Virus record (IMG/VR): IMGVR_UViG_3300046777_000618
Location: 1 to 31,594 of that record
DNA from: a virus
DNA length: 31,594 nt
Strand: one strand, 5' to 3'
Shown here: in pieces, positions 7,475-25,849 of the stretch
How positions within the stretch are numbered: the first letter of the stretch is position 1
Layout: each line of letters begins with the position of its first letter
Program-made: the position numbers and the translations under genes
The notes under the pieces: model-generated
What the model was told of the DNA's origin: nothing
The model's database searches: none
The model's input: only the letters and a program-made list of their open reading frames with translations

Positions 7475-7494
7475 AGACATCACCGTGTCTTTTT
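7475..7494 (+). terminator. Possible rho-independent terminator of the + strand late block
   Basis: AGACA (7475-7479) and TGTCT (7486-7490) can pair around a 6-base loop, followed directly by a T run ending at 7494. It lies 55 bases after the HNH stop, where the + strand block converges on the - strand sigma gene, and overlaps the last codons of that gene. The stem is only 5 bp, so this is weak. Confidence 0.35.
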
Positions 7495-8382
7495 ATTGTC
7501 GGTTCCAAGGTGTGTGTCCGCCAGTGGATTGCGCATCAGCATACGGAGGCGCATGATGCCACGTTGCTGGATGCTGTGCAGTCTGGTCTTGCTGATACCA
7601 GTCATGCGCTCTAACTCTGACCATGTCATTGGCTGACAAAGCAACCTAGCTTTAAGTACTGATTGCGTTGTCTCATCAAGGTATTTGGCAAAATAATCCA
7701 TCATCGTTTGAATATCCTGCCTAGTAGAGAAATCATCTTCGTCGTAAGTAGGATCTGCAATTGTATCGGCAATGGTGTTGCTTTCCGAGTCTGCAATGTG
7801 CTGGTCAAGGCTGGTAACGCGGTAGCTTTGGCGCAGCAGCATCGATAACTCTTGAGGGTCCATGTCTAGATGTTCCGCCACTTGATTAGTGCTGGGTGCT
7901 TGGCCCAGCTCATGGCCTAGGTCTTGGATGGTGCGGTTGACCTTATACAGCATCTCGTGTACACCAATCGGCAGCCTGATAATGGCGTCGTAGCTGATCA
8001 GTGCCCTAGTGATGCCCTGCCGGATCCACCAGTAGGCGTAGGTCGAGAACTTGTAGCCGCGGGTGGGGTCGAACAGGTCCACTGCACGCGATAGGCCGAT
8101 ATTCCCCTCTTGGATCAAGTCCATGAATTCAAGCGTCTTGTTCTGGCGCTTGTCATACTTGCGGGCAATATGCACGACCAGTTGCAGGTTGGACTGAATA
8201 AACCGTTGCCGTGCACGTTCACCGCTACGCACTTCGCGTTGTTCATCTTTTGTTAATAGCCTGTTAAGTTGCTGCAGTTCCTTGAGTCTTGCGACACGCC
8301 TGCCAAGTTGTATCTCTTGCTGCGGTGTCAACAGTGGATATTTGGCGATACTGTTGAGATAGTCTTTGATTGAGTCCGACAT
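7480..8382 (-). CDS. Phage-encoded sigma-70 family factor (group 2-like)
   Basis: A 300-residue protein. Residues 4-30 resemble region 1.2 (DYLNSIAKYPLLTPQQEIQL). Residues 55-130 are a full region 2 with the core-binding 'FIQSNLQLVVHIARKY', 'MDLIQEGNIGL' and the -10 recognition helix 'YKFSTYAYWWIRQGITRAL'. Residues 135-190 are region 3. Residues 236-285 are region 4, but the recognition helix (SKTRLHSIQQRGIMRLR) departs from the standard 'TRERIRQIEAKALRKLR', so -35 preference may differ. It would bind host core RNA polymerase and redirect it to phage promoters. It is the last gene of the leftward block, 205 bases after dCTP deaminase. The pattern is closest to cyanobacterial primary/group 2 sigma factors, which points to host origin. 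Confidence 0.92.
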   Translation of the reverse strand: MSDSIKDYLNSIAKYPLLTPQQEIQLGRRVARLKELQQLNRLLTKDEQREVRSGERARQRFIQSNLQLVVHIARKYDKRQNKTLEFMDLIQEGNIGLSRAVDLFDPTRGYKFSTYAYWWIRQGITRALISYDAIIRLPIGVHEMLYKVNRTIQDLGHELGQAPSTNQVAEHLDMDPQELSMLLRQSYRVTSLDQHIADSESNTIADTIADPTYDEDDFSTRQDIQTMMDYFAKYLDETTQSVLKARLLCQPMTWSELERMTGISKTRLHSIQQRGIMRLRMLMRNPLADTHLGTDNKKTR

Positions 8383-14459: not shown

Positions 14460-15263
14460 TTACGTCATGCAGTAGCCTGATTCGCAACCATCTTGTTCGT
14501 CTATCCATTCCGGGAATAGGCCAAGCTGGTCGGGGATGGCAATGTTCAAGGGCTGACCGCTTTTTGCGCCAGCACCAGATACAAAAACCATGTCCCGACC
14601 TTGATCAATTCGTTTTTCATTCAAACGTTTTTCAAGGATTACAGCTTTATCAAACAATTCTGGTCGCTCGCGTTTCATTGTGATCCACTGATCAGTTGTT
14701 TTATAAGGACAAAACCAACAACTGGATTTAGGTGGCTGTGGTATACCGGCTTCTTTTGCAATGCGTAAACAGTCATTGCGACTATATCCAAGTTCAATTA
14801 ATGGATAAGCGCTTGTGTATCCGTCGTCTTCACGACTTGGCGTGGCGCGATGAGGTTCATCTGTGCTGATACCCTTGCCAAGAATGCAGCCAGGTGCATT
14901 GGCCTTAATCCATTTAGCGATTGGTTTGATTTTAAAATGCAATGTGCAATTTCGCAAGCCAGGAGCGCCGCTAGCCATGCGCACTGGTATGTCAATCGAG
15001 CGCAAGTGACTCATCTGCTGCAAATACAAATCAACAGGCGTGCCATCACGCCTTCTTTTTTGGACATCAACCCACTCAATACCATGTTTTGCGGCGTATG
15101 GCTTTAAAACTTGTGAAATGTAACGAATAGTATCCGGTGATTCGGCTTCATCGCCAACATTTGCAAAAACAAAAGTGCGGTAAGGAATGAAGCCCTGTGC
15201 TGCAAGCACTAGGCAGGCGGTTGATTGCACGCCACCACCGCAAGAAAAGATGTGTTTAGTCAT
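14460..15263 (-). CDS. PP-loop ATPase, PAPS reductase/adenine nucleotide hydrolase-like
   Basis: A 267-residue protein opening with a modified PP-loop, 'SCGGGVQSTA' (residues 7-16), then 'FVFANVGDEAESPDTIRYI', a substrate region with 'LRNCTLHFKIKPIAKWI', and a cysteine motif 'PKSSCWFCPYKTTDQW'. This order fits the PAPS reductase/DndC-like branch of the alpha-hydrolase superfamily, which activates a substrate by adenylation. Which substrate it uses is not readable; sulphur metabolism, nucleobase modification or DNA modification are all possible. It is more AT-rich than its neighbours, suggesting recent acquisition. It overlaps the helicase stop by 4 bases and is followed by the stand-alone small gene. 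Confidence 0.8.
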   Translation of the reverse strand: MTKHIFSCGGGVQSTACLVLAAQGFIPYRTFVFANVGDEAESPDTIRYISQVLKPYAAKHGIEWVDVQKRRRDGTPVDLYLQQMSHLRSIDIPVRMASGAPGLRNCTLHFKIKPIAKWIKANAPGCILGKGISTDEPHRATPSREDDGYTSAYPLIELGYSRNDCLRIAKEAGIPQPPKSSCWFCPYKTTDQWITMKRERPELFDKAVILEKRLNEKRIDQGRDMVFVSGAGAKSGQPLNIAIPDQLGLFPEWIDEQDGCESGYCMT

Positions 15264-16612
15264 AGTCCGTGCTTTTTGACTAACCTAGCCTGAAACACCC
15301 GCTCTGCCCAGCCGCGTTTGTAGCCGCGTTGCTGCGCCAGCTTGCGCAGATCTTCGAGGGATTGCGCACTGCCTTGCTCGCGGCGCTGCTGGCGTTGCAG
15401 CTCCTGCAGCTCACCATCAACCACTTTCAGCTCCCTGGTCTCCTGCGGGGCAAACACATGCCCGCAATCGCGGCACACCTGCGCAGCGCTCATGCTGGTG
15501 CTAAAGCACACCGGGCACACCTTGACGCTTGGGGCTTGCTCGCGGTCGCGTTTTTTGGCACCGTCCAATGTCCAGTCGCGGTCCTCCAGGTGATGGCCAA
15601 GCCTAAGGGTGTTGCCCACATGGTCCAGCACCACAGCGGTTTTGCCGTGGCTGGGTCTCAGGCAACGACCGATCATCTGCAGGTGCAAGCTGACTGACTG
15701 CGTTGGCCTTAGCAGGATGCACCCGCCGACGCTTGGCACATCCACGCCCTCACCAATCAGGCTGCAACTGGTCAGCACCTTGATGCGGCCAGTGCCGAGT
15801 GCAGTCAGCAGGTCCCTGCGCTGGTCAGTGGTCATGGTGCCGTCGATGCTGGCGGCAGGGATGCCCTGGCTCACGAACAGCGCCGCCACCGCCTCGGCAT
15901 GCGCCACGCTGCAGCAGAACGCGATCGCCGTCTGCCCTGCCAGGTGCTTGCGGTAGTGGCTGCAGCAGTCGCCCATGATGGTGCCGACGCGTTGCTCGGC
16001 CTCTTTGGTGTCAAAGTCACCCATCTTCTTACGCAGCCCAGTGCTGTCAAATCCCGGCGGTGCCAAGACACGGGCACTGGCTAGGTAGCCATTATCGGTC
16101 AGCCACGCAGCGCTGGGGCCTTGCACCATGGCCTGGTAGTGATCACCAAGCCCGCGGCCGTCACCGCGGCATGGGGTCGCTGTCACGCCCAAGACATGCG
16201 CCTGCTGGAAATGCTGCAGCACCGTGGACCACTGGCCAGCATTGGTGTGGTGCGCCTCGTCCACCACTAGAAGCTGAAAGAACCCAGCCGGCAGCTTGTG
16301 CAGCCTCCGCGCAAGGGTCTGGATTGAGGCAACTTGCACCGCATGACTCAGGTCCATGCTGCGGCTGGCTTGGATGCGGCCATGCGTCACGCTCATAGCC
16401 GTAAGGCTGCGGCTGGCTTGGTCCAGCAGCTCAGCGCGGTGGACAAGGATGCAGACGCGGTTGCCCTTGCGGGCGGCGGACTGGGCGATGTAGCTAAAGC
16501 ACACCGTCTTGCCGCCGCCGGTGGGCAGCACTGCCAGCACCGTGCGCTTGCTGAGCTGGTATTGCAGCCGGATGTCAGTGATGAGCTGCTGCTGATAAGG
16601 GCGGAGGTTCAT
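15260..16612 (-). CDS. SF2 DEAD/DEAH-box helicase with C-terminal zinc ribbon
   Basis: A 450-residue helicase of the UvsW/RAD25-like type. Walker A is 'LPTGGGKT' (29-36), motif II 'DEAHH' (118-122), motif III 'VTATP' (143-147), motif V 'LIGEGVDVP' (285-293) and motif VI 'QMIGRCLRP' (312-320). After the second RecA-like domain comes a zinc ribbon (C366/C369 and C380/C383) and a basic helical tail. It would unwind or remodel branched DNA during replication or recombination, consistent with the annealase, exonuclease, SSB and VRR-NUC genes in the same block. Its ATG overlaps the stop of the small gene at 16609-16782. Confidence 0.9.
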   Translation of the reverse strand: MNLRPYQQQLITDIRLQYQLSKRTVLAVLPTGGGKTVCFSYIAQSAARKGNRVCILVHRAELLDQASRSLTAMSVTHGRIQASRSMDLSHAVQVASIQTLARRLHKLPAGFFQLLVVDEAHHTNAGQWSTVLQHFQQAHVLGVTATPCRGDGRGLGDHYQAMVQGPSAAWLTDNGYLASARVLAPPGFDSTGLRKKMGDFDTKEAEQRVGTIMGDCCSHYRKHLAGQTAIAFCCSVAHAEAVAALFVSQGIPAASIDGTMTTDQRRDLLTALGTGRIKVLTSCSLIGEGVDVPSVGGCILLRPTQSVSLHLQMIGRCLRPSHGKTAVVLDHVGNTLRLGHHLEDRDWTLDGAKKRDREQAPSVKVCPVCFSTSMSAAQVCRDCGHVFAPQETRELKVVDGELQELQRQQRREQGSAQSLEDLRKLAQQRGYKRGWAERVFQARLVKKHGL

Positions 16613-16854: not shown

Positions 16855-17028
16855 ATGCAGCTAGCCAGACCATTCAGCCTCCGCCTCAGCCCAGACCAGT
16901 TGCAGTGGCTTGACAGATGGCGTGCTGACCGTATGTCCCGTGGCACAGCCATTCGCCTGCTGCTGCAGCAATCCATGGAGCTACACAGCCGTGGCCTCCT
17001 GCCCGCCACTGGACGCCGTGAGTCATGA
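16855..17028 (+). CDS. Small ribbon-helix-helix protein
   Basis: A 57-residue frame (ATG 16855, TGA 17026-17028) whose stop overlaps the start of the primase-helicase gene (ATGA). It reads as ribbon-helix-helix: strand 'RPFSLRLS', helix 'PDQLQWLDRWRADRM', turn 'SRG', helix 'TAIRLLLQQSMEL'. CopG/Arc-like proteins of this size are dimeric repressors that often control their own promoter. It is the first rightward gene and faces the leftward block, so it may control the divergent promoters just upstream. Confidence 0.65.
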   Translation: MQLARPFSLRLSPDQLQWLDRWRADRMSRGTAIRLLLQQSMELHSRGLLPATGRRES

Positions 17029-19067
17029 GTAGCGACCTGTTAGCGCAGCTGATGAAGCTGCCACGCGACTGGTCCTATGTGCCAGTTGATGGCGAAAAAC
17101 GGCCATACATCAAAGATTGGCAAGATGGCCACATCACTCGCGCTCAGCTGGGCAATGAGCTGAAGTCCGGCCGTGCCAAGGCAATTGGCGTCTGCTGCGG
17201 CACCCTTAGCGGTGGCTTGCTGTTCGTTGACCACGATGGCAAATCCGCGTCCGGGCTTTTTGACGACTGGGGCATCCCGGTCAGCTCGTTGCCGCCATCC
17301 TGGACCGTAACCAGCGGCCGCGACGGGCGGTTTCAGATCATCTACCAAGTGCCCCAGCACTACTGGGCAGACATCCGCACCCGCAAATACAAGACCGGCG
17401 TCACCGATAGCGAAGGGAAGCCAGAGCAGGTTGAGCTGCGCTGGGATGGCTGCCAGTCCGTCGTTGCCGGGGCGCACCCGCTCACGTCTGGCTATAGCTG
17501 GGTGCTAGGACGCTCACCGGCAGACCTGAATATTGCGGAGGCACCTGCCGACCTGATAGCACGCATGCTGCGGCAACCCGTGCAGGCGCCATTGCCGTTG
17601 GTGACCGCTGCCGGCAGTGACGACACAGCGCGGGCGCGGTCATATCTCGAAGCACTGCAACCCAGCCGCGCTGATGAATATGACCAGTGGCTTGAAGTGG
17701 GTATGGCGCTGCACAGCGTTGATGATGCCTTACTGGCTGACTGGATCAATTGGTCAGCCCAGTCCTCCAAGTTCAAGCCCGGTGACTGCGAACACAAATG
17801 GCGCGGGTTCAAGTCCGGCGGTGGCATCACCCTTGGCACCCTTGGTCAACTGGCCAAGCAAGACGGCTGGCACGGGCGGCAGCAACTAGAGCCTGTCCGG
17901 CGTGAGCGGCCTTCAAGCAAGCAGCCGCCGTCAGCGGTGAACCCGCAATTGCAGCCCATGAACGCTGCTGAGCTGCTAAACCTGCTGCGGCACGGTGACA
18001 GCAGCTACCGCTACAACACCTTCACCCAGCGCATCGAGGTAGACGGCGCTCCCATTGAAGGCGCCGAGCGGTTTTACCTCACCCTGGCCGAGATGGGTTA
18101 CAAGGTCTCAAAAGAGGTAGCCCTGGACTGCATTGTGCAGGTAGCCAATGAGTCACCGTATGACCCTGTTGTCGAGTACCTTGACCGCGTTGCCGCCACA
18201 GTTGCTCCCGCTTACATCGAAGCCCTGGCTACCGGCTACCTGCGCCCTGGTGACACGCCCGGCACCATCTACGACGAAATGCTCAAGCGCACCCTGATTG
18301 GTGCTGTCGCCCGTGCGTATCACCCTGGCTGCAAGCACGACACAGCATGCGTAATCATGGGTGACCAGGGCGCATACAAGTCATCGTTTTGGGCGTGCCT
18401 TGGCCATGACTTTTTTAGCGATGCCTTAGGTGACATCAGCAGCAAAGACGACCTGATGGTTTTGCACAGGTCGTGGATTATGGAGTGGGCAGAGCTTGAC
18501 CATGTGACCAATCGCAAGCATGCAGGACAGGTCAAGGCGTTTCTATCGCAGGCAGTTGATATGTTTCGCGTGCCGTATGGCAAGGCCACTGAGGCATTCC
18601 CAAGGCGCGGCATTATTGTCGGCACAACTAACCGCACGACCGGCTTTTTGGTGGACGAAACCGGCAACCGCCGGTTCTGGGTCATACCCACCACCAAAAC
18701 GCAGGCGGACCAGATTGACACCGCCGCGCTATTACTGGAGCGCGATGCAATATGGTCTGCTGCTGTTGCTGCATATCGCGCTGGTGAGACAAGTAGGCTG
18801 CCAATGCAGTACGAGGTGAAACTATCCGAGGAGAATGAATCCTATGTGGTTGATAACCCTTGGCAGGCTGAAATTGAGGACTGGTTGCGTAGGCATGGCG
18901 AGATTGATTTGACCACTGAGAAGTTGCTTACTGAGGCCATTAAGAAGCCCGTAGAACGGCAGACCAAGGCGGACCAGATGCAGGTTGCGGACGTGCTTAA
19001 GCGGCTCGGGTACAAGCGGTACCGCAGCGGCAAAGGGTCAAGCAGGGCATACGTCTACCGAAAGTAG
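17025..19067 (+). CDS. Primase-helicase: prim-pol-like N-terminus plus VapE-type ATPase
   Basis: A 680-residue multidomain replication protein. Residues 1-185 resemble the bifunctional primase-polymerase domain: 'WSYVPVDGEKRPYIKDWQDG', 'AIGVCCGTLSGGLLFVDHDG' with D69/D71 as the likely metal ligands, 'TSGRDGRFQIIY'. Residues about 200-282 form a PriCT-like linker ('DEYDQWLEVGMALH'). Residues about 390-600 form a VapE-type helicase ATPase with Walker A 'GDQGAYKSS' (446-454), Walker B-like 'SWIMEWAELD' and 'IIVGTTNRTTGFLVDETGNRRFW'. The C-terminus is a winged-helix-like region. It would prime and unwind at the phage origin. The repeat-rich non-coding segment starts right at its stop codon, as expected for an initiator next to its origin. 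Confidence 0.83.
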   Translation: MSSDLLAQLMKLPRDWSYVPVDGEKRPYIKDWQDGHITRAQLGNELKSGRAKAIGVCCGTLSGGLLFVDHDGKSASGLFDDWGIPVSSLPPSWTVTSGRDGRFQIIYQVPQHYWADIRTRKYKTGVTDSEGKPEQVELRWDGCQSVVAGAHPLTSGYSWVLGRSPADLNIAEAPADLIARMLRQPVQAPLPLVTAAGSDDTARARSYLEALQPSRADEYDQWLEVGMALHSVDDALLADWINWSAQSSKFKPGDCEHKWRGFKSGGGITLGTLGQLAKQDGWHGRQQLEPVRRERPSSKQPPSAVNPQLQPMNAAELLNLLRHGDSSYRYNTFTQRIEVDGAPIEGAERFYLTLAEMGYKVSKEVALDCIVQVANESPYDPVVEYLDRVAATVAPAYIEALATGYLRPGDTPGTIYDEMLKRTLIGAVARAYHPGCKHDTACVIMGDQGAYKSSFWACLGHDFFSDALGDISSKDDLMVLHRSWIMEWAELDHVTNRKHAGQVKAFLSQAVDMFRVPYGKATEAFPRRGIIVGTTNRTTGFLVDETGNRRFWVIPTTKTQADQIDTAALLLERDAIWSAAVAAYRAGETSRLPMQYEVKLSEENESYVVDNPWQAEIEDWLRRHGEIDLTTEKLLTEAIKKPVERQTKADQMQVADVLKRLGYKRYRSGKGSSRAYVYRK

Positions 19068-19322
19068 TACCCCACCTAGGTGGGACGGGTACCCCACCTA
19101 TTGATCGCTGAGATGCGCTGCGCCGCAGGCGATGTTGGCGAGGTACCCTACCTGGTTCGCGTCCCACCTCGGTCTGAAACTTCCCTACGCTCCCCTTCGC
19201 GTCCTTCTATTCCTTTATTTGTTTTGATATAGGTAGGGTTAGGTAGGGTACGTGGGGAACACCCGCTCTGTGACTGGGTTTTGGCGGTACCCCACCCCGT
19301 CCCACCTTGCCCTTAGGTGGGG
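19067..19322. repeat. Iteron-like repeat region, candidate replication origin or operator array
   Basis: This non-coding segment (between stop 19067 and ATG 19343) contains about nine copies of a GTACCCCACCT-like motif in both orientations. Top strand: 19067-19078, 19089-19100 (start-to-start 22 bp), 19143-19153 (GTACCCTACCT), 19161-19169 (GTCCCACCT), 19287-19296, 19299-19307. Opposite orientation: 19231-19239 and 19241-19251 (AGGTAGGGT, 10 bp apart) and 19315-19322 (AGGTGGGG). Between the two clusters lies the only AT-rich stretch (about 19206-19232). Clustered iterons flanking an AT-rich element, between a primase-helicase and a ribbon-helix-helix gene, fit an origin or a cooperative operator. 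Which one cannot be decided from sequence. Confidence 0.7.
19071..19084. repeat. Perfect 14-bp palindrome CCCACCTAGGTGGG
   Basis: CCCACCTAGGTGGG is identical on both strands and combines two inverted copies of the repeat core. It begins 4 bases after the primase-helicase stop. It is suited to binding a dimeric regulator or initiator. Confidence 0.75.
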
Positions 19323-19342
19323 AACTGCCTTACGGTCACTGG

Positions 19343-19615
19343 ATGAAAGAAATCAAAGTCCGTTTTGAGCCTGCAGACCTGGTGGCACTGGACCAGCAGG
19401 CAGCAATGGCAGGCGTCAGCCGCAGCGAGTTGATCCGCAGTCGGGCGCTTGTGTCGAATTGCGACAGCGGCCTTACCGTGGCGCGTTACCACCGGCTAGT
19501 GTCCGACGCGCTAGCCAATGTGCGCGGGGACATCCCACGGCGCATGGTTGAGCAACTTGTTGCTTATGTCATTACATGGATCTCATCAACATCTCAGCCA
19601 AGCAGCAACCCGTGA
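19343..19615 (+). CDS. Ribbon-helix-helix protein next to the repeat region
   Basis: A 90-residue protein. ATG 19343 (MKEIKVRFEPADLVALDQQA) is chosen; an in-frame TTG at 19307 would add residues encoded by the repeat array. The N-terminal 40 residues are a clear ribbon-helix-helix: strand 'KEIKVRFEP', helix 'ADLVALDQQAAMAG', turn 'VSR', helix 'SELIRSRAL'. The C-terminal half is helical ('ARYHRLVSDALANVRG', 'RRMVEQLVAYVITWI'), probably for oligomerisation. It is the best candidate to bind the adjacent repeats and so control either replication or its own operon. Confidence 0.7.
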   Translation: MKEIKVRFEPADLVALDQQAAMAGVSRSELIRSRALVSNCDSGLTVARYHRLVSDALANVRGDIPRRMVEQLVAYVITWISSTSQPSSNP

Positions 19616-19776
19616 TCAACCGGCTCCATGACGCCATGGAGTGCGCGCTTGCATATGCGGCTGCCATCCGCGATAATGCGCAAGATGACCAGCAGCCAAT
19701 CCCGGCTGAACTGGTTGCCTCGTTTGAAGCCGATTACCACCGGCTGGTTTCCATCCTTACCGAAGCCACTCAATGA
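19576..19776 (+). CDS. Small conserved helical protein
   Basis: A 66-residue protein overlapping the ribbon-helix-helix gene by 40 bases and the clamp start by 4 (ATGA). It reads MDLINISAKQQPVINRLHDA followed by 'MECALAYAAAIRDNAQDDQQ' and 'IPAELVASFEADYHRLVSIL'. The phrase 'YHRLVS' also occurs in the preceding protein, perhaps showing a shared interaction helix. No catalytic motif is seen; function unknown. Confidence 0.55.
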   Translation: MDLINISAKQQPVINRLHDAMECALAYAAAIRDNAQDDQQPIPAELVASFEADYHRLVSILTEATQ

Positions 19777-20813
19777 AACTCATCACCACACAGGCTGATC
19801 TCACCCACGCGCTACGCACCATTGCGCCAGCCATTGGCACTGGCAACAGCCATCCGATCCTGAGCTGTTGCTTGATTGCCGCTGATGCTGGTGTCATGAC
19901 CGTCACCGGCTTCAACTTGGACCTTGGCATCACGGTGTCCGTACCCGCAGCAGTGGACACACCAGGCACCGTGGCGCTGCCGTATCGGCTGCTGGCGGGT
20001 CTTGTCAGCCGCATGGATGATGGCGAGCCTGTGACGCTGTCAGACGGTGCTGTGAGCGCCTCCAGCGGCTCTTATGGGCTTGCTGTGTGTGATGCAGCCG
20101 ATTACCCGGCAATGCCCGTTGTAGAGGCTCCTAGCGCTGAGTTGGACCTGACCGCTGGTGTGCGTGCCTGCATGGCTGCTGTCAGCACCGACGCCAGCAA
20201 GCAGATCCTGCAGGGCATCCACATGGCGGCCGGCTTCATGGAGGCCACCGACGGCCACCGGCTCATGCGTGTGCCTGTAGCGCTGCCCGATGGCATTGAC
20301 CTGGTGCTACCAGCCAGCACGATGAAGCTGCTGCAGGACCGGACGGTGACAGTGGCAGCAGCAGCCGGCCAGGCGGTCATCGATGCCGGTGATGGCATCA
20401 CCATCTACAGCCGCATCCTTGACGGCAAGTACCCCGACGTGGCAGCGCTGGTGCCAACCAGCTTTGAGCACACCATCACCCTGGACCGGCACCGATTTAC
20501 CCGATGCCTTGAGCGCGTTGCCCTGATCGCAGAGGCGCATAACTCTGTGGTTAAAATCGCCGCCGTTGCTGGCAAGCTCGCCATCACCGCCGAAGCTGAT
20601 GCCAACAATGGCCGCGAGACGCTTGCCGTCGATAGTGACGCCATTGGCACTTGGGCGTTCAATGTGCATTACCTGCTTGATGGCCTGAAAGCCATGCGGC
20701 AAGCAGAGACTGTTACACTGTCGGCCAATAGTGCAACAACGCCGGTCGTGCTAAGGCCGACTAGCATGACGGAGCAGACTTATCTCATCATGCCGATTCA
20801 AATCCGGGAGTAA
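19773..20813 (+). CDS. dnaN: DnaN-like DNA polymerase sliding clamp
   Basis: A 346-residue protein, slightly shorter than bacterial beta clamps (about 366-390), starting MKLITTQADLTHALRTIAPA. It follows the three-domain clamp layout: 'IGTGNSHPILSCCLIAAD' and 'TGFNLDLGITVSV' in domain 1; 'DLTAGVRACMAAVSTDASKQ', 'GIHMAAGFMEATDGHRLMRV' in domain 2; 'IYSRILDGKYPDVAALVPTS', 'DRHRFTRCLERVALIAEAHN' in domain 3, and the C-terminal 'TYLIMPIQIRE'. It would hold a polymerase on phage DNA. With no phage polymerase visible in the window, it may load host Pol III or an unseen phage enzyme. Confidence 0.87.
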   Translation: MKLITTQADLTHALRTIAPAIGTGNSHPILSCCLIAADAGVMTVTGFNLDLGITVSVPAAVDTPGTVALPYRLLAGLVSRMDDGEPVTLSDGAVSASSGSYGLAVCDAADYPAMPVVEAPSAELDLTAGVRACMAAVSTDASKQILQGIHMAAGFMEATDGHRLMRVPVALPDGIDLVLPASTMKLLQDRTVTVAAAAGQAVIDAGDGITIYSRILDGKYPDVAALVPTSFEHTITLDRHRFTRCLERVALIAEAHNSVVKIAAVAGKLAITAEADANNGRETLAVDSDAIGTWAFNVHYLLDGLKAMRQAETVTLSANSATTPVVLRPTSMTEQTYLIMPIQIRE

Positions 20814-25578: not shown

Positions 25579-25849
25579 ACACTTCAAAAATGGTCAGATC
25601 TTTTCAGATCCGGTTGAGGTGCTAGTAGGTGAAGCGTGGGTTAACGCCGTGCTTTGCTACGCGGACAATGGCGACCAGTATTGGGCAACGCTTGACATGG
25701 CTAAACTAAGCCCAGTGACCGAATGGCGTTATGGCAGCGGACAAGAAAATCGGCAAGGTGATGGGCGAGTAAAAACGGGGAACGCTTCAAAGCGGCAAAG
25801 GGCCAAAGGTCAAAAGCCGCAAGCAGGCAATAGCAATTGCGCTATCTGA
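25559..25849 (+). CDS. Small protein following the MuF-like gene
   Basis: A 96-residue frame from ATG 25559 (MDLPSLRHFKNGQIFSDPVE). Residues 1-60 look like a compact beta-rich domain ('VLVGEAWVNAVLCYADNGDQ', 'YWATLDMAKLSPVTEW'). The last third is basic and low-complexity ('GNASKRQRAKGQKPQAG') and coincides with another coding frame of a recognisable family, so it may be an accidental extension after loss of an earlier stop. Function unknown. Confidence 0.5.
   Translation: MDLPSLRHFKNGQIFSDPVEVLVGEAWVNAVLCYADNGDQYWATLDMAKLSPVTEWRYGSGQENRQGDGRVKTGNASKRQRAKGQKPQAGNSNCAI

Follow-up and report, generated by a model that had tools for sequence, protein, structure and literature searches.

Positions 19067-19325 of the window, by which we mean the whole 31,594-base virus record analysed here, very likely form a phage replication origin, which would be read by the C-terminal winged helix of the primase-helicase encoded upstream (17025-19067). 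The evidence lies in the sequence and comprises the repeat sites, their conservation around an invariant AT core, a predicted winged helix, covariation of iteron and winged helix, and exchange of the array together with the initiator gene. The preliminary description had proposed a candidate origin here, with the RHH protein at 19343 and the primase-helicase as possible binders. Since the iteron tracks primase residues 611-680 and not the RHH protein, and since the array is swapped with the initiator, the origin idea is supported, while the RHH partner is not.

The window carries genes for the terminase large subunit, portal, head morphogenesis and tail proteins, and a dCTP deaminase gene. By primase, the nearest named phage is Synechococcus phage S-LBS1 (51.5% identical), and a scan of genome contigs returned a single relative, on a Cyanobium bin contig (L159; primase 48% identical). 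From these two nearest primases, we infer that the host is a freshwater picocyanobacterium. No match at the DNA level was found among named phages. A phage-borne cyanobacterial-type sigma-70 factor is encoded at 7480-8382 (-), with its top NCBIfam match, Sig70-cyanoRpoD, under the cut-off; a sigma factor gene is present in S-LBS1 too. A 267-aa protein encoded at 14460-15263 (-) has a PADLOC SspD match (E 9e-18) and a weak PAPS reductase match, and its gene adjoins that of a superfamily II helicase (15260-16612). Downstream of the RHH gene, 19773-20813 (+) encodes a phage-borne homologue of DNA polymerase III beta (sliding clamp), for which no counterpart was detected in S-LBS1.

The repeat array and its conservation

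The initiator gene, the array and the neighbouring gene are laid out as follows.

17025-19067 (+): primase-helicase initiator, with PriCT_2 (residues 204-277), a VapE-like helicase (402-607) and a C-terminal winged helix
17029-19342 (+): exchangeable cassette of initiator gene and array; homology to relatives L082 and L083 ends at 17028-17029 and resumes at 19343
18852-19064 (+): codons of the C-terminal winged helix (residues about 610-680), which is proposed to read the iterons; from AlphaFold2, PDB matches and iteron covariation
19067-19099: left site cluster, 19067-19077 (+), 19078-19088 (-) and 19089-19099 (+), containing a 14-bp palindrome at 19071-19084; 0.95-1.0 conserved in 26 arrays
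19143-19153 and 19160-19169 (+): two sites, from sequence and conservation
19171-19205: pyrimidine-rich tract, preceding the AT-rich core
19206-19230: AT-rich core, proposed melting element; conservation 1.00 in 26 arrays
19231-19260 (-): three tandem sites at 10-bp pitch (starts 19231, 19241 and 19251), abutting the AT core; 0.95-1.0 conserved
19287-19325: right site cluster, 19287-19297 (+), 19298-19307 (+) and 19315-19325 (-), from sequence and conservation
19343-19615 (+): RHH (NikA/CopG-like) protein, neighbour of the array; Pfam NikA-like, E 4.7e-6

By eye, the array holds 11 GTACCCCACCT-like sites with the starts and strands listed above, seven of which match GTACCCCACCT at two or fewer mismatches, the other four being looser (GTCCCACCT-like or AGGTAGGGTT). 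The repeats and their two orientations thus agree with the preliminary description, and its count of about nine does not. Other details that it gave hold exactly or nearly so: spacings near 10 or 22 bp (we find 22, 10/10 and 11 bp), the perfect 14-bp palindrome, the inverse pair (GTACCCTACCT at 19143 reverse-complements exactly to AGGTAGGGTAC at 19241), and the AT-rich block between site clusters, matched in AT content by just 19 of the 31,568 27-mers in the window. The stop codon of the primase gene (19065-19067) runs into the first site, and the non-coding gap from there to the RHH start is 275 bp; this had been taken for the longest non-coding stretch, and the window has other ORF gaps as long or longer, depending on gene calls.

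The motif is short and the genome GC-rich, which would favour an origin of the repeats by chance, base composition or neutral expansion, and the window as a whole contains 13 matches to GTACCCCACCT (two or fewer mismatches) against 6.0 expected. Seven of them fall within the densest 260 bp, a density reached in none of 500 dinucleotide shuffles of the window, which never exceed 3. In addition, every exact copy of GTACCCYACCT in six relatives of 36-42 kb lies within the one array. Since the motif was derived from this same region, conservation provides the independent check. The array is present in close relatives, where the preliminary description had advised looking for it, and in the resulting 26 arrays of the same iteron type (the window's included) mean conservation is 0.97 in sites versus 0.89 in spacers, the AT core being invariant. 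The layout also persists when the iteron sequence changes, and this conservation already refutes the chance or neutral explanation, to which we assign a negligible probability.

Specifically, the array runs from plus-strand sites through a spacer, further plus-strand sites, the pyrimidine tract and the AT core to three minus-strand sites at 9-10 bp pitch, a second spacer, plus-strand sites and a minus-strand site. This order is largely retained in relatives with different iterons (GTCCTACCT, CTGCCCTACCT and CCTAACC types), and the tandem triple at 9-10 bp pitch occupies the same place in other clades. An architecture that stays fixed while the site sequence varies is expected of an array that co-evolves with its binding protein. 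GC skew, proposed earlier as a check, gave no support: neither the window nor any of three 40-kb relatives (G003, G004 and G005) has an extremum or turning point at the array, and in a phage with strand-biased genes such skew is weak evidence either way.

The array could instead be a regulatory region, to which the initiator would bind chiefly as a repressor or activator of the operon that follows (RHH, clamp-like gene and terminase). Its sites reach as far as the start of RHH, an RHH promoter would be expected where the last site sits with its inverted counterpart (19301-19321), and a search for a separate promoter fitting the sigma-70 consensus found none. A single terminator-like site lies at 19251-19272, against 0.5 expected by chance. 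Tandem sites around a melting-type AT core nevertheless exceed the needs of an operator, and arrays are retained with different downstream genes in S-LBS1 and L159. We therefore regard a mainly regulatory role as unlikely; some control of downstream transcription by the initiator, alongside origin function, is possible.

Covariation of the iterons with the flanking proteins

The initiator matches PriCT_2 (E 1.7e-23) and VapE-like (E 2.4e-62) in Pfam, and its VapE-like helicase matches the PriRep1 structure 7pds by sequence (E 1.3e-26). For the last 76 residues, AlphaFold2 run with 19 sequences predicts a winged helix (pLDDT 86, pTM 0.75, H-H-H-E-E) with wing tip RSGKGSSR and recognition helix KADQMQVADVLKRLG. 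Comparison of this model with PDB structures returned many winged helices, the best at Z 6.2 and PriRep1 7pds at Z 5.7, values that are ordinary for winged helices; the matches indicate fold class only. The full-length AlphaFold2 model is poor (pLDDT 54), and only the C-terminal model was used; assembly of a helicase ring is therefore drawn from homology only. In two relatives (L030 and L031), about 260 extra bases between array and RHH gene encode the primase C-terminal winged helix a second time (ELNLPIHRSSEMQVAEILRGMGYTRHR...YVFYPA); this copy may bind the origin as a protein in its own right or serve as a decoy.

We compared repeat-k-mer distance with protein distance across 58 distinct arrays, using partial correlations that control for the other primase segments and for the other flanking protein. 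Primase residues 611-680 track the iteron with a partial r of 0.64 in the 58 arrays and 0.78 among 30 close relatives, values reached in 0 of 500 permutations in either case. The RHH protein gives 0.00 and 0.01, respectively. The independent events behind these values are few, so the count of switches matters more than the size of the correlation.

The clearest switch is that of clade B (L020, L037, L046 and L036), in which primase residues 1-607 are about 90-99% identical to the window's, but the last 73 residues are only 73-78% identical. These viruses carry a different iteron, GTCCTACCT, in an array with about 51-66% DNA identity to the window's, and their RHH protein remains 81-90% identical. 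Their DNA identity to the window drops at about 18725 and recovers inside the RHH gene, and the 3′ end of their primase gene is more like that of clade C. In the L035/L047 type, which has YRCCCTACCT iterons, one wing residue is changed from lysine to alanine. Together these comparisons support a model in which the C-terminal winged helix of the initiator, residues 611-680, sets iteron specificity. The winged-helix coding sequence adjoins the array, and linkage alone could move both together; it is less able to explain the pattern because the RHH gene is equally near, 17 bp past the last site, yet does not co-move.

RHH proteins can bind iteron arrays as repressors and as partition proteins, and this closeness of the RHH gene would suit an operator of that gene or a centromere-like (parC-type) iteron array. 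The distribution of the two argues otherwise. Nearly identical RHH proteins (94-99% to the window's) accompany three unrelated arrays, those of the window, L082 and L083, and the RHH protein shows no partial correlation with the iteron, so that array specificity does not go with the RHH protein as it would for a parC/ParR or CopG-type system. Conversely, L050, L051 and L053 retain primase and array, yet the 1.4-2.7 kb downstream yielded no RHH gene. S-LBS1 likewise combines an array with no detected RHH homologue, and L159 has tandem repeats 3′ of its primase gene, an unrelated next gene and no detected RHH neighbour; these absences come from tblastn, which a protein of about 90 residues can escape, and are not proof. 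No partition ATPase gene was recognised beside the array. Binding of the array by the RHH protein, as the preliminary description had entertained, is contradicted by these observations, and we consider it decidedly improbable. The same description had held that repeats missing from close relatives with the same genes would refute an origin; this holds of relatives that share the RHH gene and does not hold of those that share the primase gene.

Exchange of the initiator gene together with its array

RHH genes 94-99% identical to the window's stand beside two unrelated arrays, each following its own unrelated initiator gene. In L082 and its kin (9 distinct upstream regions), TTGCGTCCGCC iterons of opposed orientation flank an AT-rich stretch and follow a gene for a D5_N/DUF5906 protein; in L083 and its kin (14 distinct upstream regions), CGTTAGG-type iterons follow a Zn-ribbon/Toprim primase gene. 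Neither group has a window-type primase gene in its available stretch. The alignment of the window to L082 and L083 breaks at the start codon of the initiator gene and restarts at that of the RHH gene, which indicates that the array belongs with the upstream gene. Judged from these alignments, related viruses exchange the initiator gene and its matching repeats as one unit. We think it somewhat more probable than the contrary that one freshwater cyanosiphovirus lineage keeps a single replication locus at which three or more unrelated cassettes of initiator and origin (PriCT_2/VapE, D5_N/DUF5906 and Zn-ribbon/Toprim primase) replace one another, with start codons as the borders of the exchange, and that the iteron specificity also changes within one cassette type. 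In the open-access literature, we found no description of a self-loading initiator helicase with a 3′ iteron origin in cyanosiphoviruses, nor of such an exchange involving two unrelated initiator types.

The same exchange bears on packaging. With the small-terminase-like and large-terminase genes about 1.5 kb downstream, the array lies where a pac or cos site read by the small terminase might be sought. From the RHH gene through the small-terminase-like gene into terL, however, the window and L082/L083 share about 85-86% DNA identity, yet their arrays are unrelated. In S-LBS1, the termini are predicted at 25,643 (PMC6157547), far from its array at 34237-34641. Since the terminase genes stay while the arrays change, a packaging site is very improbable here.

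Upstream of the cassette, a 57-aa ORF (16855-17028, +) overlaps the initiator start codon (ATGA). It has no Pfam match and by eye looks like a second RHH regulator (RPFSLRLSPDQLQWLDRW...SRGTAIRLLL), and the DNA corresponding to it is similar upstream of all three cassette types.

Comparison with known origins and a possible mechanism

A self-loading initiator helicase with an iteron origin 3′ of its gene is of a known kind. PICI origins directly follow the rep gene on its 3′ side, always have two iteron sets around an AT-rich region, and are backed by plasmid maintenance tests (PMC6092414). SaPI Rep reads its origin with its C-terminal domain, and the isolated C-terminal domain of Cch2 shows specific binding to a conserved iteron site that lies shortly after the Cch2 gene (PMC7581432). 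The window shares with PICIs and SaPIs (SaPIbov1, SaPI5 PriRep1 and EcCICFT073) a primase-helicase initiator whose VapE/D5-type helicase is related to PriRep1, an origin directly 3′ of it with iterons in two groups around an AT-rich region, and a C-terminal DNA-binding domain, here predicted, whose part in iteron specificity is drawn by comparison alone, from the winged-helix model and the covariation at 611-680. The differences are that the iterons are others, that plus- and minus-strand sites occur together and include, in the middle, a tandem triple at 10-bp pitch, and that the carrier is a tailed phage equipped with its own genes for head and tail rather than a satellite island; the genes for portal, head morphogenesis, terminase large subunit and tail proteins exclude that the window is itself a PICI.

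Part for part and in order, the window matches a PICI origin, which suggests a course of initiation. The initiator would dock on GTACCC(C/T)ACCT iterons through its C-terminal winged helix, and helicase rings would assemble on the site clusters flanking the AT-rich core. These rings would then melt the core beside the three 10-bp-pitch sites, and the primase part of the initiator would begin synthesis. Binding, ring assembly, melting and the start of replication at the array are all inferred by this analogy.

Lambda O recruits the host helicase, whereas the initiator here carries its own. Both are phage initiators that read, here presumably, iterons beside an AT-rich tract, and the lambda iterons lie inside the O gene (PMC7466680), in contrast to the position of the present array 3′ of the initiator gene. 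SCCmec Cch2 likewise has a helicase gene with a putative origin just downstream, and differs in having only three iterons, a separate polymerase-type primase and another host group. The Sulfolobus plasmid pRN1 (orf56/orf904) shares a small upstream regulator gene, resembling the order of the 57-aa ORF and the initiator gene here, as well as a winged-helix primase-helicase and an origin region on the 3′ side of that protein's gene (PMC4234260). This origin of pRN1 is a stem-loop of 100 nt, whereas the left spacer here (19100-19139, 25 arrays) folds no better on average than dinucleotide shuffles (mean z -0.5); hairpins in this spacer, considered for their perfect stems in L028 and L148, are thus not claimed. 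The array has no match in Rfam. For phage P4 alpha/crr, in which a C-terminal winged helix of the initiator binds iterons, the domain predicted here would be of the same kind; the P4 origin-binding domain structure is not among the PDB matches listed, an absence that carries no weight.

In S-LBS1, an iteron array that includes an AT-rich block stands after the homologous primase gene. The iteron of S-LBS1 is TGCCTAACCT, its core lies in the opposite orientation and no RHH gene was detected. An iteron array different from the window's thus follows the primase gene in both S-LBS1 (51% relative) and L159 (48% relative). The S-LBS1 record (L158, MG271909.1) breaks off inside a unit of about 115 bases that recurs in its own array, likely an assembly break at the origin repeats. 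The S-LBS1 paper reports no origin, and we found none described for this phage group.

Our analysis extends the PICI-type rep-ori layout to cyanobacterial phages, in which it moves as a clean cassette. The dozens of relatives form a natural set of variants, with the iteron co-varying with a 70-residue winged helix and the rest of the initiator nearly constant, so that the specificity code of a self-loading initiator helicase becomes testable by binding and domain-swap experiments. As the gene and its matching repeats are swapped as a unit, which protein reads which repeats can be tested as well. If true, cassette swapping may free co-infecting or co-resident phages from each other's replication control.
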